From NCBI RefSeq assembly GCF_900215245.1, contig NZ_LT907842.1, positions 6,262,001-6,326,000 on the forward strand: DNA of 64,000 nt, in the 5' to 3' direction. The DNA comes from Pseudomonas fluorescens (GTDB lineage Bacteria > Pseudomonadota > Gammaproteobacteria > Pseudomonadales > Pseudomonadaceae). Made by a program: the position numbers and the translations under genes. Below, one piece after another: positions 12,770-61,525 of the stretch. Numbering within the stretch: the stretch's first letter is position 1; each line of letters starts with the position of its first letter. The notes under the pieces were generated by a model. That model searched no databases, was not told the DNA's origin, and saw nothing but the letters and a program-made list of their open reading frames with translations.

Positions 12770-12780
12770 GATGTACCCAA

Positions 12781-14337: not shown

Positions 14338-14478
14338 TTGAATCACCGCCAGTTTCGTCTTGGGTTTGGTCGTGGCAACCATCTAAAGCTAGGATGGAAT
14401 GAGCGTCAAACCCTACGGGCATTTTGGGAAATGTCCTAAGACCTGGGTATGCCCGCTGTGCTGAGACAGGAGTTCACC

Positions 14479-43315: not shown

Positions 43316-44122
43316 ATGAGCGATTTCAACACCCTCGAACTGATCACCGACAGCCGTGGCTTTGCCACGCTGTGGCTCAGTCGTGAAGCCAAGAACAACG
43401 CGTTCAACGCCGAGATGATCCGCGAACTGATCATTGCCCTGGACCAGGTGCAGGGTGATTCGTCGCTGCGTTTCCTGGTGCTGCGTGGACGCGGCAAACA
43501 TTTCAGCGCCGGTGCTGACCTGGCCTGGATGCAGCAATCTGCCGAGCTGGACTATCACACCAACCTTGACGACGCGCGCGAACTGGCCGAACTGATGTAC
43601 AACCTGGCCAAGCTGAAAATCCCGACGCTGGCGGTGGTACAAGGCGCGGCCTACGGCGGCGCACTGGGCTTGATCAGTTGCTGCGACATGGCGATTGGCG
43701 CCGATGACGCGCAGTTCTGCCTGTCGGAAGTGCGCATCGGCCTCGCACCGGCGGTAATCAGCCCGTTCGTGGTGCAGGCCATCGGCGAGCGTGCGGCGCG
43801 CCGCTATGCGCTGACGGCCGAGCGGTTTGGTGGTCAGCAGGCACGGCATATCGGCTTGTTGGCGGAAAGTTACCCGGTGGGCGAACTGGACCAGCACGTA
43901 GAACAGTGGGTCGCCAATCTGCTGCTTAACAGCCCGGCCGCCATGCGCGCCAGCAAGGATTTGTTGCGTGAAGTCGGTAACGGCGCACTCACCCCGGCCT
44001 TGCGTCGTTACTGCGAAAATGCGATTGCGCGGATCCGCGTCAGCGCCGAGGGTCAGGAAGGCTTGCGGTCCTTCCTGCAAAAACGCTCGCCCAGCTGGCA
44101 AGTGCAGGAGCCCCGTTCATGA
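43316..44122 (+). CDS. liuC: Methylglutaconyl-CoA hydratase
   Basis: 268 residues, crotonase fold: RGRGKHFSAGADLAWMQ oxyanion region, GAAYGGALGLISCCDMAIG, and LSEVRIGLAPAVISPFV carrying the second catalytic Glu. Makes HMG-CoA from 3-methylglutaconyl-CoA, the substrate of LiuE. 14 bases after liuB and overlapping liuD by four. Confidence 0.93.
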   Translation: MSDFNTLELITDSRGFATLWLSREAKNNAFNAEMIRELIIALDQVQGDSSLRFLVLRGRGKHFSAGADLAWMQQSAELDYHTNLDDARELAELMYNLAKLKIPTLAVVQGAAYGGALGLISCCDMAIGADDAQFCLSEVRIGLAPAVISPFVVQAIGERAARRYALTAERFGGQQARHIGLLAESYPVGELDQHVEQWVANLLLNSPAAMRASKDLLREVGNGALTPALRRYCENAIARIRVSAEGQEGLRSFLQKRSPSWQVQEPRS

Positions 44123-46044
44123 GCACACTGACCACCGTGCTGGTGGCCAACCGTGGCGAGATTGCTTGCAGAGTGATGCGCACAGCCAAGGCCATGGGCC
44201 TGACCACCGTGGCGGTACACAGCGCCACGGACCGCGATGCGCGGCATAGCCGCGAAGCGGATATTCGTGTCGACCTGGGGGGTAGCAAGGCCACCGACAG
44301 CTACCTGCAAATCGACAAGCTGATCGCCGCCGCCCAGGCCAGCGGCGCCCAGGCGATCCATCCGGGGTATGGTTTCCTGTCGGAAAATGCCGGGTTTGCC
44401 CGTGCAATTGAAGCGGCGGGTTTGATCTTCCTCGGCCCGCCCGCCTCGGCCATTGACGCCATGGGCAGCAAATCGGCAGCCAAGGCATTGATGGAAAAGG
44501 CCGGCGTGCCGCTGGTGCCGGGTTATCACGGCGACGCCCAGGACCTGGAAACCTTTCGCGACGCCTGTGAACGTATCGGTTATCCGGTGTTGCTCAAGGC
44601 CACGGCGGGCGGCGGCGGCAAAGGCATGAAAGTGGTCGAGGAAGTCAGCCAACTGGCCGAAGCCCTGGCGTCGGCCCAGCGCGAAGCGCTTTCATCCTTC
44701 GGCAACGGGCAGATGCTGGTGGAAAAATACCTGCTCAAGCCACGCCATGTGGAAATCCAGGTGTTTGCCGATCAGCACGGCCACTGCCTGTACCTCAATG
44801 AACGCGACTGCTCGATTCAACGTCGTCACCAAAAAGTCGTGGAGGAAGCGCCGGCGCCGGGCCTGGGGGTTGAACAGCGCAAAGCGATGGGCGAAGCCGC
44901 GGTGCGCGCGGCCCAGGCGATCGGCTACGTGGGCGCGGGGACCGTGGAGTTCTTGCTGGACGCCCGCGGCGAATTTTTCTTTATGGAGATGAACACGCGA
45001 TTGCAAGTGGAGCACCCGGTGACCGAGGCAATTACCGGCCTCGACCTGGTGGCCTGGCAGATTCGTGTCGCTCAGGGTGAGCCACTGCCGATCACTCAAG
45101 CCCAGGTGCCGTTGATCGGTCATGCGATTGAAGTGCGCTTGTATGCCGAGGACCCGGCCAATGATTTCCTGCCGGCCACCGGGCGCCTTGCGCTGTACCG
45201 CGAATCTGCGCCGGGGCCGGGCCGTCGGGTGGACAGCGGCGTAGAACAAGGCGATAGCGTTTCCCCCTTCTACGACCCGATGCTCGGCAAACTGATTGCC
45301 TGGGGCGAAGACCGGGAACAGGCGCGTCTGCGCTTGTTGAGCATGCTGGATGAGTTCGCCGTGGGCGGGCTGAAGACCAACCTCGGCTTCCTGCGGCGCA
45401 TCATCGGCCACCCGGCATTTGCGGCAGCCGAATTGGATACCGGGTTTATTCCGCGCTATCAGGACGAGCTGCTGCCCGTGGCCGGCACCTTGAGCGATGA
45501 ATTCTGGCAGGCAGCGGGCTCGGCGTTTATGCAGAGTTTGCCGGCCGGTGACGGGCCTTGGGCGGATACACGCGGGTTTCGCGCGGGGTTACCGGCCGAG
45601 GTTTCGCTGCACCTGAGCTGCAATGGGCAAGATCAATGGGTCAGGCTGTGCGGGAACTCGCCGCAGTTGCAAGGCGATCAGCTACTGGTCGAACACAACG
45701 GCGTACGCCGCGCTCATCTGGCGGTGCGTGACGAAGGCTCTGTGTACTTGCGCTGGAACGGTGAGATGCACGCCGTCACGCTGTTTGACCCGATTGCGGC
45801 GGTCGAGGCCAACCAGTCTCATCAGGGTGGCCTCACCGCGCCGATGAATGGCAGCATCGTGCGGGTGCTGGTGGAGGTCGGACAACGCGTGGAAGCCGGA
45901 ACCCAACTGGTGGTATTGGAGGCGATGAAGATGGAGCACAGCATCCGCGCGCCGCAAACCGGCGTGGTCAAGGCGCTGTATTGCCAGGAAGGCGAAATGG
46001 TTGCCGAAGGCAGTGCCTTGGTGGAGCTGGAAACGGCGGACTAG
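44119..46044 (+). CDS. liuD: Methylcrotonoyl-CoA carboxylase alpha (biotin) subunit
   Basis: 641 residues. Biotin carboxylase region (VLVANRGEIACRVMRTAKAMG, ATAGGGGKGMKVV, FMEMNTRLQVEHPVTE), a central BT-like segment, and a C-terminal biotinyl domain with the carrier Lys in VLEAMKMEHSI. Carboxylates biotin with ATP and bicarbonate. Its stop overlaps that of the convergent S24 repressor (shared CTAG, 46041-46044). Confidence 0.96.
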   Translation: MSTLTTVLVANRGEIACRVMRTAKAMGLTTVAVHSATDRDARHSREADIRVDLGGSKATDSYLQIDKLIAAAQASGAQAIHPGYGFLSENAGFARAIEAAGLIFLGPPASAIDAMGSKSAAKALMEKAGVPLVPGYHGDAQDLETFRDACERIGYPVLLKATAGGGGKGMKVVEEVSQLAEALASAQREALSSFGNGQMLVEKYLLKPRHVEIQVFADQHGHCLYLNERDCSIQRRHQKVVEEAPAPGLGVEQRKAMGEAAVRAAQAIGYVGAGTVEFLLDARGEFFFMEMNTRLQVEHPVTEAITGLDLVAWQIRVAQGEPLPITQAQVPLIGHAIEVRLYAEDPANDFLPATGRLALYRESAPGPGRRVDSGVEQGDSVSPFYDPMLGKLIAWGEDREQARLRLLSMLDEFAVGGLKTNLGFLRRIIGHPAFAAAELDTGFIPRYQDELLPVAGTLSDEFWQAAGSAFMQSLPAGDGPWADTRGFRAGLPAEVSLHLSCNGQDQWVRLCGNSPQLQGDQLLVEHNGVRRAHLAVRDEGSVYLRWNGEMHAVTLFDPIAAVEANQSHQGGLTAPMNGSIVRVLVEVGQRVEAGTQLVVLEAMKMEHSIRAPQTGVVKALYCQEGEMVAEGSALVELETAD

Positions 46045-48792: not shown

Positions 48793-49332
48793 TCAGTCCT
48801 TGGTGCCGGTCATGCTTTGCAGCACACCGTCGCGACGAATCAGCCCGTGGAACAGCGCCGCCGCCAGGTGCAGCAGCACCGTCAAGAACAATAGATAGGC
48901 GAGATAGCCATGGGCTTTGCGCAACAGCGCAAACAACGGCGCATTGGCGCCCATCAGCGCCGGCAGTTGCACCGAACTGCTGAGCATCACCGGGTCACCC
49001 GCCGCCGAAATCATCGCCCAGCCCAGCACCGGCAGCACCAGCATCAATGCGTACAGCAGCACATGCGAAGCCTTGGCGGCCAGCACTTGCCATAACGGCA
49101 AATCGACCGGTAGCGGCGGTTGCCGGGTGGAAAAGCGCACCACCAAGCGCACGATCACCAACGCCAGAATCGCGATACCCAGCGGCTTGTGCAGGTGAAT
49201 CAGCCACTCATGGCGCTCCGACACCGACGCGGCCATACCCGCGCCGATAAACAACATGGCGATGATCATCAGTGCCATGAGCCAATGCAGCAGGCGGGCC
49301 AGCGGCGCGAAAAACCGTGGTTGAACATTCAT
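48793..49332 (-). CDS. Cytochrome b (b561 family)
   Basis: 179 residues, four membrane helices with histidines for two hemes (ARLLHWLMALMII in TM1, WLIHLHKPLGIAILALVIVR in TM2, HGYLAYLLFLTVLLHLAAALFHGLIRRD in TM4, split). It overlaps the catalase gene by four bases. In this pair the cytochrome probably passes quinol electrons to the membrane-anchored catalase-like peroxidase. Confidence 0.9.
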   Translation of the reverse strand: MNVQPRFFAPLARLLHWLMALMIIAMLFIGAGMAASVSERHEWLIHLHKPLGIAILALVIVRLVVRFSTRQPPLPVDLPLWQVLAAKASHVLLYALMLVLPVLGWAMISAAGDPVMLSSSVQLPALMGANAPLFALLRKAHGYLAYLLFLTVLLHLAAALFHGLIRRDGVLQSMTGTKD

Positions 49333-50411
49333 GGCTTCGACTCCAGAGGGGCGCTGTGCAAGGGGCTGACTTCACCGGCGCGGCGCAGGTACGAACTGGC
49401 ATAAGCAGCCGAACGTGCGGCCAGCAGCGGGTCGTTGGAGGCTTGGATACCGCTGGGCAAAATCAGCGGGTCAAAGTTGATATCACGGCAATCACCGTCC
49501 GCTTGCGGCTGGCTGCTTTGCAGGACCAGCGAGCCGGCGTTGAGTACCTTGTGTTCGCCGGCCCAGGGTTTGCTCGCATCGTCCAAGGGGTCGCCGGGGT
49601 TGGCCAGGGTCATATTCAACTGCCAGCGCAACGGGCCCGACGCAAGGCGCTGCACCAGGTCTTTTTCCAGGAAATCGCTGCCCGACGGCGCGGTATCACC
49701 CGGCGCATCCTGGCTCTGTGGCACAACGCCCCAACGTACCGCCTGGCGCTTGCCGTCGGCGCCCACCAGGTAAAACGTATTGATGCCGTTATAGGTTTCA
49801 GTCGCGTAACTTGCCGATGGCCTGGCGGTCTTTACCCATGCCAGGAACGGCGCTGCCTCCGGGTGCGCGGCAAAAAACGCCGGCATGCTCGCCGGGTTCG
49901 GCTTGCCGGTCGCCGGGTCTGGCGCACCGGCCTTGAGCATCTGGTAGAACGCCTCAGGCGTGCCGACCGGGAACACCGGCATGCTGTTCATCCCCGTGCG
50001 CCATTGCTGGCCGTTGGCCTGGCTGAATTGCAGCGCGAAGCTGCGGATCGGCACACTGCTGTCCGGCGCATAGGGGTTGCCGCTGGGCAAGGCAAATCGA
50101 CCAATCACCGGGGTTTTAGCCGCGCTGAACACCTGTGCGCTGGAGTACCCGCGCGCCTCTGTACTGCTCTCGAAGTAACCGGCTACACACACGCCCTTGG
50201 CATGGTTACGCCGGAAGCCCGGGTGCACACCGTTATTGGCTTCCAGAGCATTGACCAGGGTTTTGGGGCGCAGGCGCTGTGGGTCAAGCGTGCCGTTGAC
50301 GTAGGCAAACGCCCCAGCAACAACGGCAACCACGGCACCGATACCGGCGAGCCGCGCGATCAGGCTCGCGGTACTCAAGGGAGGACGGGGCGGTGATGAG
50401 TGATCTACCAT
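49329..50411 (-). CDS. Membrane-anchored catalase-family peroxidase (SrpA-like)
   Basis: 360 residues from the ATG at 50411 (MVDHSSPPRP). One N-terminal membrane anchor (ARLAGIGAVVAVVAGAFAYVNG) then a minimal catalase core: distal His in FRRNHAKGVCVAGYF, PIRSFALQF, and the heme-ligand-like RSAAYASSYLRR (R-x-x-x-Y) near the C-terminus. It lacks the large wrapping and flavodoxin-like domains of full catalases. Preceded by an ECF-type promoter identical in layout to that of the sigma gene at 54436. Confidence 0.9.
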   Translation of the reverse strand: MVDHSSPPRPPLSTASLIARLAGIGAVVAVVAGAFAYVNGTLDPQRLRPKTLVNALEANNGVHPGFRRNHAKGVCVAGYFESSTEARGYSSAQVFSAAKTPVIGRFALPSGNPYAPDSSVPIRSFALQFSQANGQQWRTGMNSMPVFPVGTPEAFYQMLKAGAPDPATGKPNPASMPAFFAAHPEAAPFLAWVKTARPSASYATETYNGINTFYLVGADGKRQAVRWGVVPQSQDAPGDTAPSGSDFLEKDLVQRLASGPLRWQLNMTLANPGDPLDDASKPWAGEHKVLNAGSLVLQSSQPQADGDCRDINFDPLILPSGIQASNDPLLAARSAAYASSYLRRAGEVSPLHSAPLESKP

Positions 50412-50451
50412 GAAGAACTCCAGGGCGCATGGCCGCAAGGAAAATGAACTA

Positions 50452-50480
50452 TGAGACGAACCTCACATAGGTCTATTCCC
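50452..50480 (-). promoter_or_regulatory. ECF-sigma promoter of the catalase-cytochrome b operon
   Basis: On the minus strand: GGGAATA (from 50480), 15 bases, CGTCTCA (to 50452), about 40 bases before the catalase start. The GGAATA-N15-CGTCT pattern recurs upstream of the ECF sigma gene with the same spacing. Confidence 0.82.
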
Positions 50481-50532: not shown

Positions 50533-51297
50533 CTACGTGGGGTTAAACACTGCCGGACGTTTGCAGAGAAACGCCTGCATCCCCTCCTGCTGATCAGGCG
50601 TGGCAAACAGGCCATGAAACAGCCGACGCTCCACACGCACGCCGTCGTGCAAGCCCACCTCAAGGGATTGTTCAACGGCCTCTCGCGCCGCCCGGGTGGC
50701 TGTCCGGGAGAACCCGGCAATCTGCGCAGCCACTGCCAATGTCTGCTCCATCAGAATTGCCGCCGGGAACACACGGGACACCAACCCAGCTTGATCGGCC
50801 TCTTGGGCAGTCATTGGCCGACCAGTCAACACCAGGTCCATGGCCTTGGCCTTACCGATCAGCCCTGTCAACCGCTGGGTCGCCCCCATCCCCGGAATCA
50901 CACCCAACTTGATTTCCGGCTGCGCAAAGGTCGCCGTATCGGTGGCGAAAATCATGTCGCACATCAGCGCGAGTTCACAGCCACCGCCAAATGCGTAACC
51001 CGCTACTGCGGCGATCGTTGGCGTGCGCAGACGCGTAAAGGCTTCCCAGCCGACGAAGTAATCCTCGTTGAGCATGTCCAGGTAAGACTTGCCGCTCATC
51101 TCTTTGATATCGGCCCCTGCAGCGAAATAGTCCGCACTGCCGGTGATGACAAAACAGCCGACCTGAGGGTCACGATCCAAAGCATCCAGGCTGCTGACCA
51201 ACTCCGTCATCAGCGCCGAATTCAGCGCATTCTTGACGTGCGGACGGTTGAGCCTGACCAGGACTACCCGACCATGACGTTCCACTAATACGTGCAT
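50533..51297 (-). CDS. Enoyl-CoA hydratase/isomerase family protein
   Basis: 254 residues. The ATG at 51297 follows a strong GAGGAGG site. Both catalytic Glu regions are kept: AGYAFGGGCELALMCDMIF and FAQPEIKLGVIPGMGATQRL, so true hydratase activity is plausible. Oxyanion loop SADYFAAGADIKEM. It is last of a three-gene minus-strand cassette with the membrane reductase and adenylation enzyme upstream (gap 42 bases). Substrate unknown. Confidence 0.88.
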   Translation of the reverse strand: MHVLVERHGRVVLVRLNRPHVKNALNSALMTELVSSLDALDRDPQVGCFVITGSADYFAAGADIKEMSGKSYLDMLNEDYFVGWEAFTRLRTPTIAAVAGYAFGGGCELALMCDMIFATDTATFAQPEIKLGVIPGMGATQRLTGLIGKAKAMDLVLTGRPMTAQEADQAGLVSRVFPAAILMEQTLAVAAQIAGFSRTATRAAREAVEQSLEVGLHDGVRVERRLFHGLFATPDQQEGMQAFLCKRPAVFNPT

Positions 51298-51339
51298 AAA
51301 CACCTCCTCTGATTGATGTTGTCACCCACTGACGCGACC

Positions 51340-52638
51340 TCAGGAATCCCAGATCGCGCCATAAGCGGGTATGCCTCGCGCTTCCATCTCGTGCACCACA
51401 CGCTGAGTCAAGGCCTGGTTTGCAATACAGATCACGGCTTCTGCACCTACGGTTTGCACCGAGCCATAAGCCAGTTGCACCAAGTCCGGTTTACCGCGCT
51501 CGTCGGTGTCCCAGATCAATGCGCCGGGCTGGGCGCGCAGGATTTCGTCGACCAACTCATCGCCGTAGGTCTTCCTCGGGCTGCGGGTAGACCAGATCAA
51601 CTGGATCGGCACCTGAGCTGCAAGCAAATGCGGCATGACCGGCCCGATGCCGCTCCCGGTGGCGATATACACCACTGACTTGAACAGGGTTTCCACATTG
51701 GCAACGCCAGCCGTAGTGATGCCCTTGACCCATACGTGGCTGGGCAAGTCCTCAATGAAACGCCCGGTCCAATCTCCGGCTCTGGAAATGATCAGGCGAA
51801 ACCCCGCTTCGCCTGGCGCAGGAATATTCGCAAATGAGTGCCACTCCAGCAGTGGGTTTCGGCTGATCGCGGTGGATGAACCTGCGAAAGGCGTGGTGTG
51901 GCTGAAACGGGTAAGGACCGCATGCGTCGAAGGCCTCGTTTGTTTAATGGCCACCTTACGCAGACGCAACCAAGGCGACGCAATACTCAGCGTCAGCAGC
52001 ACCAGCACCCAGAACGACCCACTGTGCGACAAGGGCGTTGAGGCTTCGATGGACGCCAGTAACGTCAGCCCCCAGAACAGCAGCAGTGCGCCCCAACCGG
52101 CGAACCGATGGACCCGCTCGAAGCCATTGTGAAACCGGCCACGAATCCAGGGCAGCGCCATGACCACGATCAACATCAACAGGCCGAGCAGCACGCTGCT
52201 GAGCCACAACCAGGCTGACGAAACGCTGCCGGGCTGCTGCAGATGGCGCGCGACCTGAACACCGACCATGGCCGCAAACCAGCCGGTAGCCGCCACCGCT
52301 GCGCCACTGTGCAGCCCCCCAAAGTGGTAGACCTTGGCCGCGCTGCGCCGCACACGTAGCGGCCATGCGAGCGGAACGCGGGTCGCCAGCCAGAACAGTG
52401 CGTTGATCAGATATTGCTGGCGAATCAGAATGGCAACCGACAGGTTGATCAACACCATGCCCGAGAGCGTTTCAACTGTGATGGTGTGAACGTCGACAAC
52501 CATCAGCACACACGCTGCGTTACCCAGCAGCACCACTGCCATCAGGCGGTTGTAGTAAGAAAACATCGGCAGTGACGTCCAGCGGCGCCATAACGCCGGC
52601 TTGGGCGGTACGACAGTACGGGTCAGCGCATCAATCAT
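51340..52638 (-). CDS. TmpA-like integral membrane flavoprotein oxidoreductase
   Basis: 432 residues. Six or so membrane helices (first at about 32-50, last at 208-223) carry histidines in HFGGLH (105-110) and ERVHRF (174-179). A cytosolic ferredoxin-reductase-like module follows, with EWHSFANIP (265-273, flavin-binding HPFT-like), GEAGFRLII, and IATGSGIGPV (325-334), the NAD(P)-binding loop. It resembles the fungal TmpA/TmpB membrane reductase family and, more distantly, ferric reductases. Start overlaps the adenylation enzyme's stop by 8 bases, so the two are coupled. Function in bacteria not known to me. Confidence 0.75.
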   Translation of the reverse strand: MIDALTRTVVPPKPALWRRWTSLPMFSYYNRLMAVVLLGNAACVLMVVDVHTITVETLSGMVLINLSVAILIRQQYLINALFWLATRVPLAWPLRVRRSAAKVYHFGGLHSGAAVAATGWFAAMVGVQVARHLQQPGSVSSAWLWLSSVLLGLLMLIVVMALPWIRGRFHNGFERVHRFAGWGALLLFWGLTLLASIEASTPLSHSGSFWVLVLLTLSIASPWLRLRKVAIKQTRPSTHAVLTRFSHTTPFAGSSTAISRNPLLEWHSFANIPAPGEAGFRLIISRAGDWTGRFIEDLPSHVWVKGITTAGVANVETLFKSVVYIATGSGIGPVMPHLLAAQVPIQLIWSTRSPRKTYGDELVDEILRAQPGALIWDTDERGKPDLVQLAYGSVQTVGAEAVICIANQALTQRVVHEMEARGIPAYGAIWDS

Positions 52639-54238
52639 GAGCGGCCTCCTCAGTCGCGAGCGCCAACCTTGCCACGTGCCTCTCCCGAGCCCGTTGCAGT
52701 AACACTGCCTTGTCGATTTTGCCCCTGGCGGTCAGTGGAAAATGCTCCATCGCGTAGATGGACGACGGCACACAGTAGTAGGCCAGGCGCTGCTGGCATT
52801 GGGCTCGGCAAGACTCGACGTCAGCACTGGCAGGCGAGACAAAAGCGACTAGATTGCGGCTGTCCAGTTTCAATGTGACAGCCCGTGTGCAGCCATCGCC
52901 AGCCTCCAGGGCCGTGGACACGGCATCCAATTCCACACGAAACCCGCGAACCTTTACCTGATCATCGACGCGCCCCAAGTGTTCAAGTTGCCCTTCGTCC
53001 GTCCAGCGCCCCAAGTCCCGTGTACGAAACATCATGGCATCACCGCCTATAAAGGGGTCCGGGCGGTAGCGCTCTTGGGTCAGTGCAGGATTGTTCAAGT
53101 AACCGGCCGTTACCCCTGCGCCGCCGGCCCACATTTCACCGGTTTCACCCAGCTCACACGCGCGGCCGTGTTCGTCGAGCACATACACGGTGTTATTCGG
53201 TGTCGGCTTGCCGATGGTCAATAGGGTGCCAGGCACATGCCGGTGCAAGGTATTGACGATGGTGGTTTCAGTGGGGCCGCAGCCGTTGTAGAACGTGCAG
53301 TGCTCGGCCCAATGCTCGGCAAGCGCCTGGGAGCAGGGCTCGCCCGCCACCGCAACAGTCTTGAGGTCAGGGCACTGTTCAGGGTCAAGGCTCGCCAATA
53401 TCGAGGGTGTTGCGATTAACACGTGGCACTGTGCAGCGGTTTGCGCAATGTCTTTACCACGAATCAACAAGGTCGCTCCATGCGCCAGACAACCGAGTAT
53501 TTCCCAGGCCGCCATATCAAAACCGATATTGAGGATCTGCCCCACGTTGCACCCCGGTGCCATGCCCATCCGCCCTGGCTGCGTCAGCAGGATGTTGCAC
53601 ACATTGCGGTGACTGACACAGACGCCGTTGGGCCGTCCGGTCGTGCCAGAGGTGAACAGCACGAAACACAGGTCATCGGTGTCGGCAGCGGCGAACGCCT
53701 GACGGTTGTCCTCGGTGATCCAGGGTGTTTCGGCCAGAAACGTGTCCAGGCTCAGGCAGCGATGGGCCGAAGCGGCCGGTATGCAATCGGTCAGGTTCGA
53801 CAGGGTCAGAATCACTGGGCTGGTCAACGACTCCAGCACCATGCTCAGTTGCAGCGTCGGTACGATTCTGACGTCTTGAGGAACATACGCGGCGCCGACC
53901 TTCAACACCGCCAAAAGCCCCACCAGCATGGGAATCGAACGCTCGACGAACAGTCCCACCGTATCGCCGCGTTTCACGCCCAACTCAATCAAGTGCACCG
54001 CCAAGCGATTGGCTTGACGGTTGAGTTGTTCATAGCTGATACGCTGGCCCGCCCACACTGCAGCAATCGCTTGCGGTGACAGCGCCGCTTGAAACTCGAT
54101 AGCGTGGTGCACACTGTCGTAGGCAGCCTTGGTCGACAGGCCGCACCCCCACTGCTCAAACACGACTTGCTGAGCGGCAGGCAAGTGAGCCAATGCAGTT
54201 CGGAAAAATAAACGTTTATCGGTCGGAGAACATGTCAT
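52631..54238 (-). CDS. Stand-alone NRPS-type adenylation enzyme
   Basis: 535 residues holding one adenylation domain and nothing else. Core motifs: A3 LFTSGTTGRPNG (194-205), A4 region FDMAAWE (240-246), A5 NGCGPTET (318-325), A7 FRTRDLGRW (404-412), A8 GRVDDQVKVRGFRVEL (422-437) and A10 PLTARGKIDK (501-510). The Asp in A4 is the residue that binds the alpha-amino group in NRPS domains, so an amino acid substrate is likely. No carrier, condensation or reductase domain is attached or nearby. First gene of the cassette. Confidence 0.85.
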   Translation of the reverse strand: MTCSPTDKRLFFRTALAHLPAAQQVVFEQWGCGLSTKAAYDSVHHAIEFQAALSPQAIAAVWAGQRISYEQLNRQANRLAVHLIELGVKRGDTVGLFVERSIPMLVGLLAVLKVGAAYVPQDVRIVPTLQLSMVLESLTSPVILTLSNLTDCIPAASAHRCLSLDTFLAETPWITEDNRQAFAAADTDDLCFVLFTSGTTGRPNGVCVSHRNVCNILLTQPGRMGMAPGCNVGQILNIGFDMAAWEILGCLAHGATLLIRGKDIAQTAAQCHVLIATPSILASLDPEQCPDLKTVAVAGEPCSQALAEHWAEHCTFYNGCGPTETTIVNTLHRHVPGTLLTIGKPTPNNTVYVLDEHGRACELGETGEMWAGGAGVTAGYLNNPALTQERYRPDPFIGGDAMMFRTRDLGRWTDEGQLEHLGRVDDQVKVRGFRVELDAVSTALEAGDGCTRAVTLKLDSRNLVAFVSPASADVESCRAQCQQRLAYYCVPSSIYAMEHFPLTARGKIDKAVLLQRARERHVARLALATEEAAHD

Positions 54239-54256
54239 GCATACACCCTCATCAGT

Positions 54257-54284
54257 TAACCGCCGAAGTTGTTCCCGGCGGTTA
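54257..54284. promoter_or_regulatory. Hairpin upstream of the adenylation gene
   Basis: TAACCGCCG and its complement CGGCGGTTA (9 bp, loop 10), 19 bases upstream of the adenylation gene start. No T tract, so an operator or leader hairpin is more likely than a terminator. Confidence 0.45.
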
Positions 54285-54379
54285 CGACGATTGATTGAGG
54301 TGTGGGAGCTGTATTACAGCCCCTTCTGCATTGCAGATGATCCCTAGTTAGAACCTAAAAATTTCCCACAGCCATTGAT

Positions 54380-54406
54380 GGAATAACTCACGCTGGCTGG
54401 CGTCTT
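54380..54406 (+). promoter_or_regulatory. ECF-sigma autoregulatory promoter
   Basis: GGAATA (54380-54385), 15 bases, CGTCTT (54401-54406), 30 bases upstream of the sigma gene. Same signature and spacing as the catalase promoter. Confidence 0.8.
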
Positions 54407-54435
54407 CCTCTGCAAAACCGATCAGAATCGCAGCC

Positions 54436-54942
54436 ATGCATGAACTCGACGAACAGTTACGTGAACTCATCCCCAGAATGCGGCGGTTTGCCGTGTCACT
54501 GACGCGTAACGCCAGCAGCGCCGACGATCTGGTGCAGTCGACCCTGGAACGGGCGATCATCAGTTGGGCCGATAAACGCCTCGAAGGCGACCTTCGCGCC
54601 TGGCTGTTCTCGATCCTCTACCGGCAGTTCCTCGATACCCACCGCCGCAGTCGGCGCTATGCACGCATGCTCGAATTCTTCACCGGCCGTGACGACGCGC
54701 AGCCCTCGGTGGAGCGCACCGTGATCGCCCAATCGACCCTGCAAGCCTTCGACCGACTCACCGCCGAACAACGCGCCCTGCTGCTGTGGGTGTCGGTCGA
54801 AGGCTTAAGCTACAAGGAAGTTGCCGATATTCTGAAGGTGCCTGTGGGCACCGTTATGTCGCGCCTGTCCCGGGCGCGCCAAGCCTTGCGTCAACTCAGC
54901 GATGGCGAAATTACCAGCCCTTCCCTGCGGATACTCAAATGA
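54436..54942 (+). CDS. ECF-type RNA polymerase sigma factor
   Basis: 168 residues with regions 2 (FAVSLTRNASSADDLVQSTLERA, FSILYRQFLDTHRR) and 4 (RALLLWVSVEGLSYKEVADILKVPVGTVMSRLSRAR). ATGA overlap with the anti-sigma gene. The same promoter signature before this gene and before the catalase operon suggests it drives both, probably as an oxidative or envelope stress response. Confidence 0.93.
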   Translation: MHELDEQLRELIPRMRRFAVSLTRNASSADDLVQSTLERAIISWADKRLEGDLRAWLFSILYRQFLDTHRRSRRYARMLEFFTGRDDAQPSVERTVIAQSTLQAFDRLTAEQRALLLWVSVEGLSYKEVADILKVPVGTVMSRLSRARQALRQLSDGEITSPSLRILK

Positions 54943-55676
54943 TCAGCCTGCCCCCCAGCGAACGCGATTTGCATGCCTACGTCGACCACCAACTGTTGGA
55001 GAGCGACCGCCGCGTGCTTGAAACCTACCTGGCGGCCCATCCCGACGTCGCCGCTCAGGTACAGGCGTGGCAGCAGGATGCGCACTTGCTGCGTGCGTCA
55101 CTGAGCGGTGCCTTGCAACAACCGGCCAACCCCGACCTGGACCCGGCACTGATTCGCCAACGGATCAAGCATCAGTCCCGTCGCCACTTCGCCACCGCCG
55201 CCGTGTTGCTGATCGCCGTCAGCCTCGGCGGCGTGGCGGGTTGGCATGCGCGCGAAGCCACTCAACCGCCGATGTTGCCGATGGCCGATGCCATGCAGGC
55301 TTACCGCCTGTTTGCCCAGGACGGCATCATGCCCGCCGACTACACGACGCAGGATGGCGGCAGCATGCAGGCTTGGCTGGACCGTTATTTCAACCAGGCG
55401 CATCGCCTGCCGGACTTGAGCCCGTCCGGTTTCAAACCGGTGAGCGGGCGCCTGCTCACCACGGACCAAGGCGCGGCAGCCATGGTGCTGTACGAAGACC
55501 CGACAGGTCGCCGTATCAGCTTCTATATCCGTCCGCCGGGCCCGGACAACGGTTTCCTGCCCCGTGGCAGCCGCAGCGCCGATGGTTTGCAAGCCGAGTA
55601 CTGGTCCGGCGCCGGGTACAACTATGCGATGGTCAGCCCGGTGGATCAGCCCTCCACACCGATGTTGAAGTTCTAG
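54939..55676 (+). CDS. Anti-sigma factor (membrane)
   Basis: 245 residues from the ATG at 54939. The N-terminal cytoplasmic part (SERDLHAYVDHQLLESDRRVLETYLAAHPDV) matches the sigma-binding helices of class anti-sigma proteins. It has no HxxxCxxC zinc motif. One membrane helix spans about 84-102 (FATAAVLLIAVSLGGVAGWH), followed by a 140-residue periplasmic domain with two conserved-looking blocks (SGFKPVSGRLLTTDQGAA, RRISFYIRPPG). Its stop overlaps that of the convergent Csu tip gene (CTAG). Confidence 0.88.
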   Translation: MISLPPSERDLHAYVDHQLLESDRRVLETYLAAHPDVAAQVQAWQQDAHLLRASLSGALQQPANPDLDPALIRQRIKHQSRRHFATAAVLLIAVSLGGVAGWHAREATQPPMLPMADAMQAYRLFAQDGIMPADYTTQDGGSMQAWLDRYFNQAHRLPDLSPSGFKPVSGRLLTTDQGAAAMVLYEDPTGRRISFYIRPPGPDNGFLPRGSRSADGLQAEYWSGAGYNYAMVSPVDQPSTPMLKF

Positions 55677-56668
55677 AAACCCACGTCCAGGACCACGTTG
55701 TCGAGATAAGTGCCGCCCGGCGGGGTGGCCTGGTCGGTGTAGATTTTCGCGTTGTAGTTGAATACCTGGCTGCCGGTGCCCAAGCCGTTGCCCGGGTTGA
55801 TCTCCGCCGAGGCGCTGGCTCGCCGCGCCGCGCCCACGCTACCCCAGCGGGTGGAGCCCGCCCCCTGGAAGATGTCATAGGCAAGCACATTACTGCCGGA
55901 CACCATCTGCCGACGGCCGCCCACGCTGACCGGGTTCTGCCCATCACTGAGCCCGACGGTATACGCACTGCCCTTGGTGCAGGCAATACTGGCCTGCCCG
56001 GTGACTGTGGCGAAGGCACTGACCACCGGGGCACTGCCGAATGCGATCGGTGGAGTGGTGATCTGGCAGTCATTGACCACGGTCATGCTGACGTTCAGCG
56101 TGGTCGTGCCGCTGTTGATCTCGCGGCCCAGGCATACCCCGCCAATGCCAATGCCCGAGCAATAATTCCAGTTCCAGAAAACGCTCAGGGTCTCGCTGTA
56201 CACACCCGCCGCCACGTTGCTGCCAAGCGTGGTGGCAAAGTACAGCGGCACTACTTTTGTGCCGGGCCCAAAGACCAGCCCCAGGGACGCGGCGATGCCG
56301 CCACTGCCGCCAAAATCGAACGCAGTACCACGTGTCATTGGAAACGACGGGGTGTTGTTGGCGTAGATCGTATAGTTGATGACATCTCCGGTCGGCCCGA
56401 CCAGGCCGCCCTGTGACGAACCGGTGATGGTCGCGTAGAAATGGTCGCTGGAAGTCAATACCGACAGCACCGCCGGGGTACAACTCAAGCCGGCGTTGGT
56501 GGTTGAGCTGGGCTGGGAGGTGGTACGCACGGTCATCGAACTCACCGACGTGCCAAAGCTGGCGGGCACGGTGGCGACCACCGAGCACACCGCCTGCACC
56601 GGCATCGACACCCCCAGGCTTGATAACAGCAGCCACACCAACAGCCATTCCTTGACCCGCACACACAC
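55673..56668 (-). CDS. Csu-type tip adhesin (two spore coat U domains)
   Basis: 331 residues with a signal peptide (VWLLLSSLGVSMPVQA). The N-terminal half resembles a receptor-like lectin domain and the C-terminal half is a typical spore coat U subunit with NDCQITTPPIAFGSAP and YLDNVVLDVGF at the end. Position at the 3' end of the operon and double length match CsuE, the pilus tip subunit. Last gene of a seven-gene operon. Confidence 0.85.
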   Translation of the reverse strand: MCVRVKEWLLVWLLLSSLGVSMPVQAVCSVVATVPASFGTSVSSMTVRTTSQPSSTTNAGLSCTPAVLSVLTSSDHFYATITGSSQGGLVGPTGDVINYTIYANNTPSFPMTRGTAFDFGGSGGIAASLGLVFGPGTKVVPLYFATTLGSNVAAGVYSETLSVFWNWNYCSGIGIGGVCLGREINSGTTTLNVSMTVVNDCQITTPPIAFGSAPVVSAFATVTGQASIACTKGSAYTVGLSDGQNPVSVGGRRQMVSGSNVLAYDIFQGAGSTRWGSVGAARRASASAEINPGNGLGTGSQVFNYNAKIYTDQATPPGGTYLDNVVLDVGF

Positions 56669-56678
56669 ACTCCTTATG

Positions 56679-59072
56679 TCATTGGCACACCAATGGCCCG
56701 ATCAGCGGCACCTGCGCTTGCGTGGTATCCAGCTCGAATGTTGCCTGGCAGGTCTGGCCGTCACCGACGCTGACTTGCAATGTGTTATGGGCCGCCAGGT
56801 TTTCCAGGTACACCAGGCCGTCCCAGCCCACCACCGCCAGGGCACCGCTTTGCTCATGGCGTACCTGGCTGCCCAGGGGCAGTTCCTGATGCCGGGCATC
56901 GATCAGCGTGATGCTCGCTGCGAGCACCCGGCGCAGCGGGAACTCAAGCAAATAGCCGCTGCCCCGGCGCACGGCAACCCGTTGCTCCACATTCGGCACT
57001 TGTACGTTGGACGGCAGGTTCAACGGGTCGATCTCATATTTGGCGCGGTAGTAGGCGCTGGTCCACGGCACCAACAGGTGGCCGTGGCGGTCGGTTTCGC
57101 CGACCACCTGATTTTCGTAGCGCACCGGCACGCCCCCTACGCCATCCGTGCTCACCACCACAAACGCATCGTTGACGCGGTTGGCGGCGAACACTTGATT
57201 GTCCATCCATACCAGCGAGCCGGTAGCGTCTGCCCAGCGTGTTTGCGCATCGCTGCTGCCATACACGCCCGCCTGCAACTGCACCGACTGCAGGCGCCAG
57301 GTCAGGTCAGCCTGACGATAGGCCGGCCCATCGCCGCTGGCGTAACCCAGGTTGAAGCCCACGCCCCCCTCGACAGGCACCGCACGGCTGTAATTGACCC
57401 GCTGCTGGCTTTGCCCGGTTTTACTGCGCTCTGTGCCCAGGCTAAGACTGCCGTAGACGTCGAAGGGCACCACCACTTGGGCCTGCACCGCCCAGCTGCT
57501 GTCACCGACTTCATGGTTGGCGGACAGGTAAAAACTGCTGTTGCGCCACAGCGACTTGCTCCAGGTCATGTTCACCAGGCGGGTGCGAGAGTTGTCGGCC
57601 GCCTGCACATCAAAATAGCCCACGCCCAGGCTGCCGAACTCGTTGAGGTTAACGCTCAGAGTCGCCTGCTGGCTGCGCTTGCTGAGGCTGGCGTAGGGGG
57701 TGTCGATCAGGCTCAGGTCAGCATATTGATCGCGGCGCTCCACGCGCTGATACGACAGGCTGTAACGCGGGTTGCTGTAGTGGTAGCCCAGGCTCAATTG
57801 CTGCCCGGTGCGGCCGTCATACCGGCTTTGGCTGATAGCCGTGTTGAGCACGCCGAGATTGCCGACGCGCAGGTTGCCGCCCACACCGCCCAGGGTCAGG
57901 TCATTGGAGGCTTCGGCGTGGCTTTCCAGGGTAACCGTGTCCGACAGCCCGTAACGAAAGGTGCCGCTGGCCACGCCGGGGCCGTAGCCGAAATCGCGCA
58001 GGGTGTAATCGCGGCGCAGGTTACCGGCTGCCACTGAGAAGTCTGACAAGCCCTTTTGCAACAGGGTGCTGGTGACATAGAACGGCACCGTGGTCGAGAC
58101 CTGTCGCCCCAGCGTATCTGTAGTGACTACCACTGCCTCCCCGGCGCCGTTGATAAACGGCACATTGGTGAGGGTGTAGGGGCCGGGCTGAAGATCGGCG
58201 CTGCTGGATTTATAACCGTTGATAAACAGGTCCACCGACGACGGTACGGCCGCCTCCCCGGCAAACTGCGGCAACGGGTAGGTGACCAGGTCCGGGCGCA
58301 CCCCGAAGTCCCGCGACACTTGCACGCCGCCCAGGCGCACCGAGCTGCTCCACGGCAAGGCAGCGCTGATGACGTCGCCCGCTTCATAGGTCAACAAGCG
58401 CTCATCGTCGGAGAATCGCCAGGTGGTGTCATAGCGCCGATAGCCATTGTCCAGGCTGCTGCCGACGGTCTCCCGGCCAAGGGTGGTGCGGTACTGGCCG
58501 GTATTGGACAAGGTGCCCCAGGTATCGAACAGCCTGACTTCGTTGAAGATGCCGAGGTAGGTGCCCGCGTCATCCGTATCGTTGAGGTAAGCATCGTAGT
58601 TGAGCAACGCGCCAAAACTGGTGAGTGCCTGGGTACGCGGGTAATTGTCACGACTGCCGATAAACTGCTCCGGCAACCAGGCGGGTGGCACCGTGAGTAT
58701 CAGCCGCTGGCCCTGGCTGTCGTAATCGGTGTGCAGGCCAGGCAGACGTTCCAGCGCCACTTCGACGGGGACCTCACCCGGCAGTTTCATGCCGACTTCC
58801 TGCAACACCGACGCCGGTAAAAACAGCTGCCCAGCGCGCTGATTGACGGCGACCACGCGGCCGGTGTCCCGCTGATTGACCACCAACTCCAGGAATAACT
58901 GTGCATCGGCAACAGCCTCCATACTGCTCGGCGGGGGCGGCAACGGCGCGGCCGCGCCCAGCGGCGCAAGCACCAGCCCGGACAAGCCACTGACCACCCA
59001 CACCGATCGCCATAGACAACGAGCCCTATCGAGGCTCACCAAGGCTTTGTGTCCATCAATGGACATCTCCAT
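56679..59072 (-). CDS. Csu-type outer-membrane usher
   Basis: 797 residues. Signal-like N-terminus, a plug-bearing barrel (GYRRYDTTWRFSDDERLLTYEAGD, VSRDFGVRPDLVTYPLPQFAGEAAVPSSVDLF in parts) and C-terminal domains (VPNVEQRVAVRRGSGYLLEFPLRR). It forms the secretion pore for archaic chaperone-usher pili; shorter than FimD, as Csu ushers usually are. Alternative start two codons in, at 59066. Confidence 0.92.
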   Translation of the reverse strand: MEMSIDGHKALVSLDRARCLWRSVWVVSGLSGLVLAPLGAAAPLPPPPSSMEAVADAQLFLELVVNQRDTGRVVAVNQRAGQLFLPASVLQEVGMKLPGEVPVEVALERLPGLHTDYDSQGQRLILTVPPAWLPEQFIGSRDNYPRTQALTSFGALLNYDAYLNDTDDAGTYLGIFNEVRLFDTWGTLSNTGQYRTTLGRETVGSSLDNGYRRYDTTWRFSDDERLLTYEAGDVISAALPWSSSVRLGGVQVSRDFGVRPDLVTYPLPQFAGEAAVPSSVDLFINGYKSSSADLQPGPYTLTNVPFINGAGEAVVVTTDTLGRQVSTTVPFYVTSTLLQKGLSDFSVAAGNLRRDYTLRDFGYGPGVASGTFRYGLSDTVTLESHAEASNDLTLGGVGGNLRVGNLGVLNTAISQSRYDGRTGQQLSLGYHYSNPRYSLSYQRVERRDQYADLSLIDTPYASLSKRSQQATLSVNLNEFGSLGVGYFDVQAADNSRTRLVNMTWSKSLWRNSSFYLSANHEVGDSSWAVQAQVVVPFDVYGSLSLGTERSKTGQSQQRVNYSRAVPVEGGVGFNLGYASGDGPAYRQADLTWRLQSVQLQAGVYGSSDAQTRWADATGSLVWMDNQVFAANRVNDAFVVVSTDGVGGVPVRYENQVVGETDRHGHLLVPWTSAYYRAKYEIDPLNLPSNVQVPNVEQRVAVRRGSGYLLEFPLRRVLAASITLIDARHQELPLGSQVRHEQSGALAVVGWDGLVYLENLAAHNTLQVSVGDGQTCQATFELDTTQAQVPLIGPLVCQ

Positions 59073-59114
59073 CCGTTAACACAACGGGCTGATCCTTGCC
59101 CGACAAGCAGTGTT

Positions 59115-59900
59115 TTATCGCCCCGGCGCAAGGCTCTCCAATTGCGTTGCACCATTGACGCGTACCTGCAGCGGCTGATCGGCCGGCAGTCCAGCCGGTA
59201 CTGGCCAGCGCATGGTCGCACCCGGCAGTACATACCCCATCAAGCCTTCCACCAGCGGACGAGGTTGGCCGCCCTGCTTGAATGTGGCATCGGTCAAGCG
59301 CGCGTGCACGGCACCCTGGTTGCGCATTTCGACGTAGTTGCGCCCGCCCACGGTGACTTTTTTCCAGCTCAAGTCCGGCTTGCCCGCGCTCTTGGGGTCA
59401 CGGTCGCGTGTGCCGTCAACCTTGCTCCAAAGGCCGGGGCCATAAGAGAACAAGGGCACCGAATAACGCATTTGGAAACGGATCGCAGCGGCAGTCTTGC
59501 CATCCGCAGGCGCCGGTGGAGGCGTCGCCGAAGGGATCTCATCGATGATGATGCGATAGGCCAGCTCCTGGCCCGGTGGCACTTGTTTGGTACGGGTCAG
59601 GCGCACCAACTGCTTCTGGCCCGGTTCGATTTTCGCCACCGGCGGGCTGCCGATCACGTCGCGCTGGTTCTGGTACTGCTCATCGAAGCCGCTCTGGGAC
59701 CAGGCAAACACGCGGATTTGCAGGTTGGCGGTTTCCGTGCCGCGATTTTCCAGCCACAGTGCGCTGGCCTGTTGATCGGCCTCCAGCACCGGATCAATCG
59801 GCCAGATCAGCACTGAACTGGCCGCCTGGGCCTGCCCCGCCGCCAACCCCAACAACCCGCTCAAACCCGCTGCCCACCAGTGCCGGGACGCTGCATACAT
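59115..59900 (-). CDS. Csu-type periplasmic pilus chaperone
   Basis: 261 residues with signal peptide ending AAGQAQA. PapD-like two-domain fold: ALWLENRGTETANLQIRVFAW, KIEPGQKQLVRLTRT and MRYSVPLFSYGP. It donates a strand to complete subunits before delivery to the usher encoded 42 bases downstream. Confidence 0.9.
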   Translation of the reverse strand: MYAASRHWWAAGLSGLLGLAAGQAQAASSVLIWPIDPVLEADQQASALWLENRGTETANLQIRVFAWSQSGFDEQYQNQRDVIGSPPVAKIEPGQKQLVRLTRTKQVPPGQELAYRIIIDEIPSATPPPAPADGKTAAAIRFQMRYSVPLFSYGPGLWSKVDGTRDRDPKSAGKPDLSWKKVTVGGRNYVEMRNQGAVHARLTDATFKQGGQPRPLVEGLMGYVLPGATMRWPVPAGLPADQPLQVRVNGATQLESLAPGR

Positions 59901-59927
59901 AAGTCTTACTCCTCATTGCCAATCGCT

Positions 59928-60425
59928 TTACCACGACAGTTGCACCTGCAATGTGTCGCTGTACGTCCCCCCAGGCTGATTACCCGGTAACTGCACTCGC
60001 CCATAAATTGGCAAGGTAATATTCGCGGCGTTGCTGTAAGCCACGCTGACGCTTTGGCTGATCCCAAGGCTCTGGCTGAAGGCCGCGTCGCGAAACAGCT
60101 GATAGCCAACCTGCGCACTGCCGCTATTGAGCTGCAGGCGGCGGCCGCTGTTGTTATGCAAACCGCCATCAACCGTCATATTCAGCGCAACCCCCGGGGT
60201 ACATTGCAGGGTCACGCCACCGGTAAGCGCGACGGTCGCCGTGCTGGTTGCCAGTGCCGAATACGTGCCGAAGGCCAGGCTGCCGTAATTGGCGCCACCG
60301 CCGACCACCAGGCAGCCGGGGGTGATGGTCGCGCTGACCTGGAACGACTGGCTCGTTACCGCCTGCAGCGACACCGGCATTCCCCAGCCGATGCACACCG
60401 CCAACGCCCACGCTGCACGGCTCAT
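59928..60425 (-). CDS. Spore coat U domain pilus subunit (4)
   Basis: 165 residues, signal peptide to SLQA then FQVSATITPGCLVVGGG (the paired-Cys start of SCPU subunits) and the C-terminal strand GGTYSDTLQVQLSW. Minor subunit or adaptor of the Csu pilus. Fourth gene of the operon. Confidence 0.85.
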   Translation of the reverse strand: MSRAAWALAVCIGWGMPVSLQAVTSQSFQVSATITPGCLVVGGGANYGSLAFGTYSALATSTATVALTGGVTLQCTPGVALNMTVDGGLHNNSGRRLQLNSGSAQVGYQLFRDAAFSQSLGISQSVSVAYSNAANITLPIYGRVQLPGNQPGGTYSDTLQVQLSW

Positions 60426-60430
60426 GGCTC

Positions 60431-60979
60431 TCAGAACGTCAGGGTCACGTTAACCGTGTCGGTGTAAGTACCGGCCGGCAGCCCCGCCTTGCCATTGGCT
60501 TTGCCGTAAATATTCACGGCTTGAGCCACACCGGTACTGGGCGCCAGGTTGATCACCCCACCGATTGCCAGCAAATTCGAATGGCCACTGTCGGTATACA
60601 GATCGTAGGGCACGTAATTGGCGACGCCGTCATACAGTGCGCGCGCGCCGCCCGTGGACTTGCCGTCATTGGCGCCGGCAGACACCGTCAATGTCGGCGT
60701 GGTACCCGCCGAGCACAGAATCGACAACGCCCCGCCGCCTCCGCCCAACACCTGGCCATCGGCTTCGGTGAACAGGCTATTGGCCGTACCGAAGTTCAAG
60801 TTACCGAAGCTCATCCCGCCGGTGGCCGCCGCGCCATTGACCTGGCAGCTGCTGGTCAGCACCAGGGTCGCGCTCACGGTGCCGGCCACGGTCGCCGCCT
60901 GCGCGCCCGACACCCACACCAGCGCTATTAATGGAAAAACGGCTTTCGATACGAGTGCATGCATGATCTTCATCCTCAT
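60431..60979 (-). CDS. Spore coat U domain pilus subunit (3), CsuA/B-like
   Basis: 182 residues. Signal peptide ends SGAQA; then VSATLVLTSSCQVNG, GNLNFGTANSLFTE and C-terminal YTDTVNVTLTF. Closest of the four to the main rod subunit CsuA/B by its Gly-rich loop (GGGGGALSILCSAG) and by length. Fits the rod subunit, although in Acinetobacter the rod gene is first in the operon. Start codon could be any of three Met near the N-terminus. Confidence 0.85.
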   Translation of the reverse strand: MRMKIMHALVSKAVFPLIALVWVSGAQAATVAGTVSATLVLTSSCQVNGAAATGGMSFGNLNFGTANSLFTEADGQVLGGGGGALSILCSAGTTPTLTVSAGANDGKSTGGARALYDGVANYVPYDLYTDSGHSNLLAIGGVINLAPSTGVAQAVNIYGKANGKAGLPAGTYTDTVNVTLTF

Positions 60980-60982
60980 GGT

Positions 60983-61525
60983 TTACCAATCCAGAGTCAC
61001 CGTCAGGGTGTCTGTGTAGATGCCGGCCGGTAGGGCCCTGGTATTCGCCACCACCGAGCCGAATACCGGGATCGGTACTTGTGTGCCCTTGGCCACGACG
61101 AAATTGTGTTGCTGGCCGATGCTGTAGGCGATGTGGCCTAGCGCGTCAGCGGACAGCCGATACGGAATGGTGTAGCGCCCGTTGCTCAGGCGTCGCGTGG
61201 TGCCGTCACCGTGGGCACCGCCGTCAATGGTCACCGTGAAGCTGCTGACCACCGAGGGGTTGCACGACACCGACACCGGGGCACTGGCGCCGTCAGTCAC
61301 CCCGGCGCCCAATGGGTTGCTCCATGTCGGGCCCTGGCTACCGAAGTCGAGCAATGCACCGCCGCCCGAAGGGCTGACCGGTGCGCCCTCAACGCCTTTG
61401 CTTACCTGGCAACTGGCAGTGATCACCAGGCGTGCGTGGATCTGCCCGGTGACTGCCGCCTGGGCGTCGTCGGCCAGCAGCAACAGGCCGCCCATCGCCA
61501 CGAGGGCCCAGCCCCGGCTTACCAT
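60983..61525 (-). CDS. Spore coat U domain pilus subunit (2)
   Basis: 180 residues; signal peptide ending ADDAQA, then IHARLVITASCQVSKG and C-terminal YTDTLTVTLDW. Overlaps the first subunit gene by seven bases, four bases from the third, hence coupled expression. Confidence 0.85.
   Translation of the reverse strand: MVSRGWALVAMGGLLLLADDAQAAVTGQIHARLVITASCQVSKGVEGAPVSPSGGGALLDFGSQGPTWSNPLGAGVTDGASAPVSVSCNPSVVSSFTVTIDGGAHGDGTTRRLSNGRYTIPYRLSADALGHIAYSIGQQHNFVVAKGTQVPIPVFGSVVANTRALPAGIYTDTLTVTLDW

Follow-up and report, generated by a model that had tools for sequence, protein, structure and literature searches.

The three genes at positions 50,533 to 54,238 of the analyzed stretch of Pseudomonas fluorescens DNA (64,000 nucleotides of contig NZ_LT907842.1; hereafter the window) almost certainly form a conserved functional unit. 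Read along the minus strand, they encode a stand-alone amino-acid adenylation enzyme of the nonribosomal peptide synthetase (NRPS) type (A), a membrane flavoprotein resembling the fungal proteins TmpA and TmpB (M), and a crotonase of the short-chain enoyl-CoA hydratase type (E). The reading we favor, with a probability of about 0.4, is that A-M-E encodes a three-enzyme pathway, small and horizontally mobile, that is the bacterial counterpart of the fungal TmpB/TmpL/NPS12 system. A (52631..54238; 535 aa) matched PF00501 and TIGR01733, the latter with 326.9 bits against a cut-off of 317.4, and retains the aspartate of core motif A4 (residue 241) and the lysine of motif A10 (residue 507). M (51340..52638; 432 aa) is predicted to join a transmembrane (TM) bundle to a FAD/NAD(P) module in an NADPH oxidase (NOX) fold, and E (50533..51303) matched PF00378, with catalytic glutamates at positions 110 and 130. 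The ATG of M lies inside the end of A, giving an overlap of 8 bases (52631..52638). Counted from a GTG start, E comprises 256 aa; the ATG at 51297, behind AGGAGG, is the likely start, and with it M and E are spaced by 42 bases. A first-pass annotation, made from the sequence alone, had described this layout with its overlap, its 42-base gap and an adenylation enzyme complete in its core motifs, including the A4 Asp; the layout, the overlap, and the A4 Asp were recovered, as was the gap for the ATG start.

A scan of species-level genomes with M yielded 74 loci; it used short exact peptide patterns, which favors relatives that keep them. Pseudomonas accounted for 34 of the loci, and the rest came from Burkholderiaceae, alphaproteobacteria, one member of the Oceanospirillaceae, Actinomycetota, Bacteroidota, and Bdellovibrionota. 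A was directly upstream of M in 72/74 loci by the script rule and in 73/74 when L044, where A is frameshifted, is counted; the sole locus lacking it there was L070, from Mycobacterium barrassiae. E was directly downstream of M in 63/74 loci, and in 59 of these it aligned over >200 residues. Because the A-M order recurs in 73/74 related loci and the M-E order in 63/74, the arrangement reflects more than chance, and homologs of the three proteins, found together in four phyla, are not scattered independently through genomes. Automatic gene calls gave an A/M overlap of 4 bases in 43/74 loci and of 8 bases in 12/74, and a single locus (L055) carries an A-M fusion, with E present too. At 56 loci A, M, and a full-length E are all present, and across these loci pairwise evolutionary distances were correlated (r = 0.94 for A-M, 0.80 for A-E, and 0.83 for M-E), and 0/1000 label permutations reached as high a value for each pair; common descent and shared species history contribute to these correlations. 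A family search located M in 25/200 genomes. Fourteen of the 25 regions were fetched, of which 12 had A, M, and E and two (L143 and L144) had M without A or E; several loci of the two fetched sets come from the same assemblies, and the sets are not independent.

The distribution of M is patchy: it was found in 17/199 Pseudomonas genomes at E below 1e-138, plus one match at 9.5e-4, and in 1/274 genomes of a class-wide sample. This pattern fits horizontal transfer. It is also the only observation that would favor regarding the three genes as chance neighbors or an annotation artefact, an explanation that is refuted by the gene order across four phyla, the fusions, and the intact active sites, and whose probability we consider negligible. 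No fourth enzyme recurred beside the cassette across phyla among 502 script-called genes at 40 non-Pseudomonas loci; the candidates were lineage-restricted neighbors, plus scattered members of large families (ABC ATPases at 9 loci and short-chain dehydrogenases/reductases at 3).

A and M also occur naturally as one protein, in both bacteria and fungi. The two window proteins were joined as a query and scored on the M part; 815 proteins were returned and the best 120 listed. Proteins of >850 aa made up 93 of 240 collected homologs, and those in the listed matches carry PF00501 together with PF26733, the family with which M relatives were tagged in the protein search. Sources among the matches listed include Aquimarina, a Pantoea record, and the fungus Neofusicoccum parvum (P0236). 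Window A is 42% identical to the N. parvum fusion over 512 columns and window M 46% identical over 428 columns, which bears out the likeness to fungal TmpA/TmpB put forward in the first-pass annotation. In a 69-row tree of M, P0236, P0239 (Dactylellina), and P0238 formed one fully supported group among proteobacterial rows; the tree was midpoint-rooted only, and the direction of transfer is not readable from it. A separate clade, in which M is fused to a cyclic-nucleotide-binding domain (PF00027) without A, contains P0207, P0218, P0219, and P0225, and includes the M. barrassiae locus L070, which has no adjacent A and carries Arg at M position 105.

Among characterized fungal proteins, TmpB of Aspergillus nidulans resembles the cassette in combining an NRPS-type adenylation domain with a TmpA-like membrane oxidoreductase, with no carrier or condensation domain, and its pocket keeps D, W, I, G, and K (PMC4804170). 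TmpB is, however, a single fused fungal protein of 989 aa needed for normal conidiation, whereas A and M of the cassette are separate genes (PMC4804170). Because A and M are two genes in the window and not one protein, the cassette reads, by its architecture, as a split relative of TmpB and not as its ortholog. The earlier suggestion of a "split bacterial version" of the fungal fusion was accurate for this locus but too narrow for bacteria as a whole, which have A-M fusions as well. The crotonase joins A and M in fungi too, since an enoyl-CoA hydratase gene adjoins tmpB in A. nidulans and is conserved in several Aspergilli (PMC4804170). The TmpL/ChNPS12 group shares with the cassette an adenylation domain, six TM helices, and a FAD/NAD(P) domain with the same GSGIGP motif, named for TmpL as its NAD(P) motif; bound flavin was shown for this domain of TmpL (PMC2766074). 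In the available text of that paper, TmpL orthologs are confined to filamentous fungi (PMC2766074), a claim that is corrected by the relatives found here in many bacteria. A Verticillium ANN cluster was considered and set aside; as far as its available description goes, it has an acyl carrier protein (ACP) domain and a different architecture.

The substrate pocket of A was derived by alignment to a segment of GrsA PheA. The residues, numbered as in window A, are D241, M242, W245, I275, A296, A298, G319, I327, and V328 (region 53255..53518, minus strand) and K507 (52718-52720, minus strand), the A10 lysine, and together they spell DMWIAAGIVK, a code that is nearly constant across phyla. Per-position counts, given in the GrsA numbering, cover 93 fusions and the 69 split homologs whose A alignments were of sufficient length. 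Position 235 is D in 68/69 split and 93/93 fused proteins, 236 is M in 68/69 and 92/93, 299 is A in 68/69 and 87/93, 301 is A in 69/69 and 92/93, 331 is V or I in 69/69 and 92/93, and 517 is K in 69/69 and 86/93 (with 7 gaps). W at 239, I or V at 278, and I at 330 were found in every split and fused homolog, and position 322 is variable, being mostly G, A, S, or C. For 683 A pairs with <60% overall identity, the mean was 54.9% overall vs 84.8% within the pocket code.

A purified enzyme provides a candidate substrate. Sare0718 of Salinispora arenicola is a stand-alone adenylation enzyme with the code DMWIAAAIVK that accepted L-Ala only among 20 amino acids in vitro, with a Km of 0.116 mM, and its neighbors encode an enoyl-CoA hydratase, a hypothetical protein, and a phosphopantetheinyl transferase (PPTase) (PMC3360062). 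It is alike with window A in being stand-alone, in its code (DMWIAAAIVK vs DMWIAAGIVK), and in its flanking hypothetical-protein and enoyl-CoA hydratase genes; the differences are that the neighbor is called hypothetical, that the available text draws no link to TmpA/TmpB, and that a PPTase gene adjoins (PMC3360062). We infer from the matching gene order that Sare0717 is M. The combination that marks this type, DMWIAAxI(V/I)K with M and E as neighbors, was found in the window cassette. One locus of our collection, L142, holds genes for a PPTase (confirmed by Pfam), A (548 aa, code DMWIAASIVK), M, and E in the order published for S. arenicola; the PPTase gene lies directly upstream of A-M-E there and was not seen beside the cassette at the other loci inspected. 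Because the pocket code is near-constant, Sare0718 is active on L-alanine, and the neighbors match, L-alanine or a close analog is, by analogy, the probable substrate of A. The first-pass annotation had stated that no bacterial pathway of this kind was described. The literature searched indeed yielded no pathway, but a bacterial A enzyme of this type had been purified and shown to activate L-alanine (PMC3360062), and in a 2010 phylogeny the bacterial stand-alone adenylation domains of Hahella and Salinispora fell into the NPS12 group (PMC2823734). The available text of the NPS12 paper makes no mention of the neighboring membrane and crotonase genes (PMC2823734).

The structural model of M has six long helices, read as TM helices, followed by a FAD/NAD(P) module, and the predicted NOX fold, with both TM bundle and FAD/NADPH module, extends over residues 13-430. 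Identity to NADPH oxidases (NOX2, SpNOX, NOX5, and DUOX) is 10-19%. The module is of the FNR type and resembles those of electron-transfer reductases and NOX; its motifs (51640..51840, minus strand) are EWHSFAN (with H267), SRAGDWT, and GSGIGP (residues 328-333). A cluster of conserved residues, H105, H110, H170, E174, and H177 (52108..52326, minus strand), maps to the predicted cytosolic ends of TM3 and TM5, and M thus has the paired histidines and NAD(P)/flavin module attributed to it at first. Among 315 M homologs, H170 and E174 are each present in 315, H105 in 314, H110 in 312, and H177 in 291. M matched no family in the Pfam and NCBIfam libraries, for Pfam even at E up to 10. An assignment as an ordinary ferric reductase was rejected in the absence of a Ferric_reduct (PF01794) match at E up to 10; P0121 gave E 1.8, below the cut-off. 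M thus falls outside the described ferric reductases and is 46% identical to the fungal fusion.

The histidines of M are also placed differently from those of NADPH oxidases. The spacing of the pairs H105/H110 and H170/H177 is unlike the two-heme spacing of NOX. At the positions expected for outer-heme ligands, His occurs in 0/309 sequences at TM5 position 190 (23/311 at the neighboring position 191) and in 2/309 at TM3 position 124, the TM5 register resting on weak profile alignments to DUOX1 and NOX2 and the TM3 register on NOX2 spacing. None of the 315 sequences has His in both outer-heme stretches. The outer-heme ligands of NADPH oxidases are therefore missing in M, which has instead the near-invariant H105 and the invariant H170 and E174, and a two-heme NOX, with two stacked hemes on two TM3/TM5 His pairs, was rejected for M. 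These data bear on the alternative that M acts as an NADPH oxidase or ferric reductase and that the three genes serve as a redox-stress device to make or sense reactive oxygen, with A and E as passengers. The full NOX fold of the model argues for it, as does the disturbed redox balance that follows TmpL loss in two fungi (PMC2766074), but it is at odds with the missing outer-heme histidines, with the coupling of A to M in 73/74 loci, and with the finding that tmpB mutants are not sensitive to H2O2 or menadione (PMC4804170). We regard this alternative as improbable; the genomic setting in Pseudomonas, which also touches on it, is described below.

E most resembles short-chain enoyl-CoA hydratases. 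In 60/60 cassette E proteins, the two hydratase glutamates are retained along with the GGG(C/L)E oxyanion-hole region; those from Bdellovibrionota are only 32-38% identical to window E and still have both Glu residues. Because the Glu pair and oxyanion-hole region are kept throughout, E is equipped to hydrate an enoyl thioester.

From these properties the following pathway can be proposed. A would activate L-alanine or a close small analog to the aminoacyl-adenylate, a reaction observed in vitro for the Salinispora enzyme. With no carrier at hand, the aminoacyl group would be passed to CoA or directly to M, CoA being our tentative choice of acceptor. M, a NOX-fold NAD(P)H/FAD protein with His ligands on the inner side only, would then deliver electrons at the cytosolic face of the membrane and not across it; its target, the activated alanine or else a lipid-side acceptor to which alanine is joined, may be reduced or may be modified by way of O2. 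E would add or remove water at an α,β-unsaturated short-chain thioester, giving a small C3-type product, and the exact order of these last two steps is unlikely to be as written. The fungal genes suggest, by analogy, a diffusible signal as a possible product. In its widest and more doubtful form, the proposal is a cross-kingdom, carrier-free route from activated L-alanine to a small diffusible molecule by way of a half-wired NADPH oxidase, one that has given up the outer heme and sends electrons to membrane-associated biosynthesis and not to outside oxygen. Bacteria would hold this route in split or fused form, and fungi would have acquired, or would share, the fused TmpB/TmpL. If this were true, the TmpB/TmpL signal would be an alanine derivative.

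Several observations weigh against the proposed three-enzyme pathway. E is not directly downstream of M in 11/74 loci (L007, L009-L013, L047, L049, L059, L070, and L072, of which L072 lies at a contig end) and is a fragment in 4 of the 63 loci that have it (L020, L050, L058, and L065, the last at a contig end), so that E may be accessory; the strongest objection to a strict three-step pathway is that a Pseudomonas group has lost E while keeping A and M. As to the substrate, the assays of Sare0718 were limited to the 20 proteinogenic amino acids, and according to its authors the enzyme may use another substrate in vivo (PMC3360062); the authors of the TmpB study predicted a hydrophobic amino acid (PMC4804170), whereas L-alanine is the best-supported substrate for the cassette. 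In L142, the PPTase gene next to A is a hint that a carrier protein takes part. The probable inner-heme ligand, H177, is missing in 24/315 M homologs. Finally, the model of an A-M fusion reached a pTM of 0.55, which does not fix the mutual orientation of A and M; docking A against M from this model was abandoned, and no placement is claimed.

The loci without E lend themselves to another reading, in which A and M constitute an amino-acid reductase. M, or its NAD(P) module, would reduce alanyl-AMP or an alanyl thioester, and the resulting alaninal or alaninol could dimerize to alkylpyrazines; E would be an optional tailoring or housekeeping enzyme. A and M are retained at the loci lacking E just listed, other than L070 and L072, and the fusions join A and M but not E. 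This reading has to accommodate the presence of E in 63/74 loci and the FNR-type module of M, which is like those of electron-transfer reductases and NOX and not like short-chain-dehydrogenase reductase domains. The latter are the domains known to release aminoacyl aldehydes. We consider the reductase reading unlikely, though ahead of a redox-stress device.

The PPTase gene raises a further option, that A loads a stand-alone or NRPS carrier in trans and that the cassette is a decorated loading module, with M and E modifying carrier-bound alanine. A PPTase gene stands beside A in L142 and beside sare0718 (PMC3360062). The genome has 25 matches to the carrier family PF00550, three of them in small open reading frames (ORFs) of 87, 87, and 121 aa, and stand-alone carriers elsewhere in the genome are thus possible. 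None of the 25 lies inside the window, however; the one carrier-type motif searched was absent from A, M, and E and from the 93 fusions, and no carrier family recurs beside the cassette across phyla at the 40 non-Pseudomonas loci. Loading in trans is, on balance, another unlikely option. The initial description of A as carrier-less accordingly holds for the window, and A as part of an NRPS module was rejected, there being no carrier (T) domain with A.

The variation at H177 is relevant to a different view of M, in which H105, H110, H170, and E174 bind a non-heme metal and M is a desaturase-like enzyme with its own reductase, oxygenating or desaturating the activated substrate or a lipid. H170 and E174 (315/315), H105 (314), and H110 (312) are better conserved than H177 (291), and the three homologs without H110 also lack H177, as if the heme pair were dispensable while H105 and H170 stay. 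The NOX-like fold, the location of the histidines near the NOX inner-heme position, and the fact that no solved relative is known to have such a metal site argue to the contrary, and a non-heme metal enzyme seems to us a slim prospect.

No paper linking the fungal family, Sare0718, and the bacterial A-M-E cassette was found in the literature searched, whose coverage left out most subscription journals, and beyond its own paper no later study of Sare0718 was found there. The parts were already known; the combined picture and the loss of the outer heme are apparently new. Work on the fungal TmpA/TmpB/TmpL family has connected it with conidiation signals, redox balance, and virulence. Its tie to a bacterial cassette, and to an A enzyme shown to take L-alanine, offers a small, genetically simple system with a named starting substrate for chemistry. 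In M, a NOX-fold protein appears to have been redirected from exporting superoxide to a biosynthetic role.

In Pseudomonas the cassette occupies a characteristic position. At 31/34 loci it lies between a pair of extracytoplasmic function (ECF) sigma/anti-sigma genes and a pair encoding a catalase-like protein and cytochrome b561; L003 and L016 have the catalase side only and L049 has neither side. In the window, the ECF sigma factor gene (54436..54942, plus strand) is divergent from A, and the catalase-like gene (49329..50438, minus strand; PF00199) lies downstream of E, followed by the cytochrome b561 gene (48793..49332, minus strand), both belonging to an older locus outside the cassette. 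Thirty fetched loci had the catalase-like gene, 9 with the cassette and 21 without, and the sigma gene directly faces the catalase-like gene in 21/21 of the latter. An ECF-type promoter, GGAATAA-N14-CGTCT (54380..54405, plus strand), is directed toward the sigma-factor gene and was found at the same place in each of the 4 further cassette loci and 5 empty ones that were scanned. A second, GGAATAG-N14-CGTCT (50454..50479, minus strand), lies between E and the catalase-like gene and is directed toward the latter; it was present in 3/3 other cassette loci and 4/5 empty loci scanned, the empty locus L080 having the sigma-ward motif only. Four of the five empty loci thus have two divergent GGAATAN-N14-CGTCN motifs between the sigma and catalase-like genes. 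Because most of the empty loci scanned have both motifs and the cassette loci scanned hold A-M-E between them, the cassette was inserted between two ECF promoters, or lost from there, and is downstream of neither. Membership of the cassette in the ECF sigma regulon was rejected, as both promoters lie outside it at the loci scanned; read-through is possible. For the redox-stress alternative, location within an ECF sigma/catalase locus is a point in favor, set against the fact that, at the loci scanned, the ECF promoters lie on either side of the cassette, with none directed into it from upstream.

No sigma-70 promoter was found upstream of A. The sequence CTGTAAT matched 79-85 nt upstream of A in 13/31 Pseudomonas loci, further upstream in 9, and was absent in 9; in the sigma-A intergenic region of the window (54239-54435) it lies within CTGTAATACAG, a near-palindrome. 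It is a possible operator or -10 element. The flanking segments 48793-50438 and 54436-55676 make up a compact ECF sigma/anti-sigma, catalase-like, and cytochrome b561 stress locus that is widespread in the genus; a catalase-like match was obtained in 183/199 genus genomes at E up to 0.001, many of these matches being other paralogs.

Other neighbors were noted in the window and at individual loci. Positions 55673-62046 of the window hold, on the minus strand, a chaperone-usher-like row (usher-like at 56679-59072, chaperone-like at 59115-59900, and several small secreted proteins), and positions 44119-46044, near the cassette, a gene resembling the alpha subunit of a biotin-dependent carboxylase, all named by eye. 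In ten alphaproteobacterial loci (L030, L035, L036, L041, L044, L048, L056, L058, L061, and L072) a divergent DUF6502 and DUF5666 pair lies upstream of the cassette, and in four Bdellovibrionota loci (L063, L064, L069, and L071) the cassette is accompanied by a divergent LysR-type regulator. In L059 (Crossiella; positions 9906-14957), A-M without E is followed by aldehyde- and alcohol-dehydrogenase-like genes, an AMP ligase, and a divergent crotonase, and these downstream genes, named by eye except for the crotonase, which was identified by Pfam, resemble an aromatic-acid degradation set.

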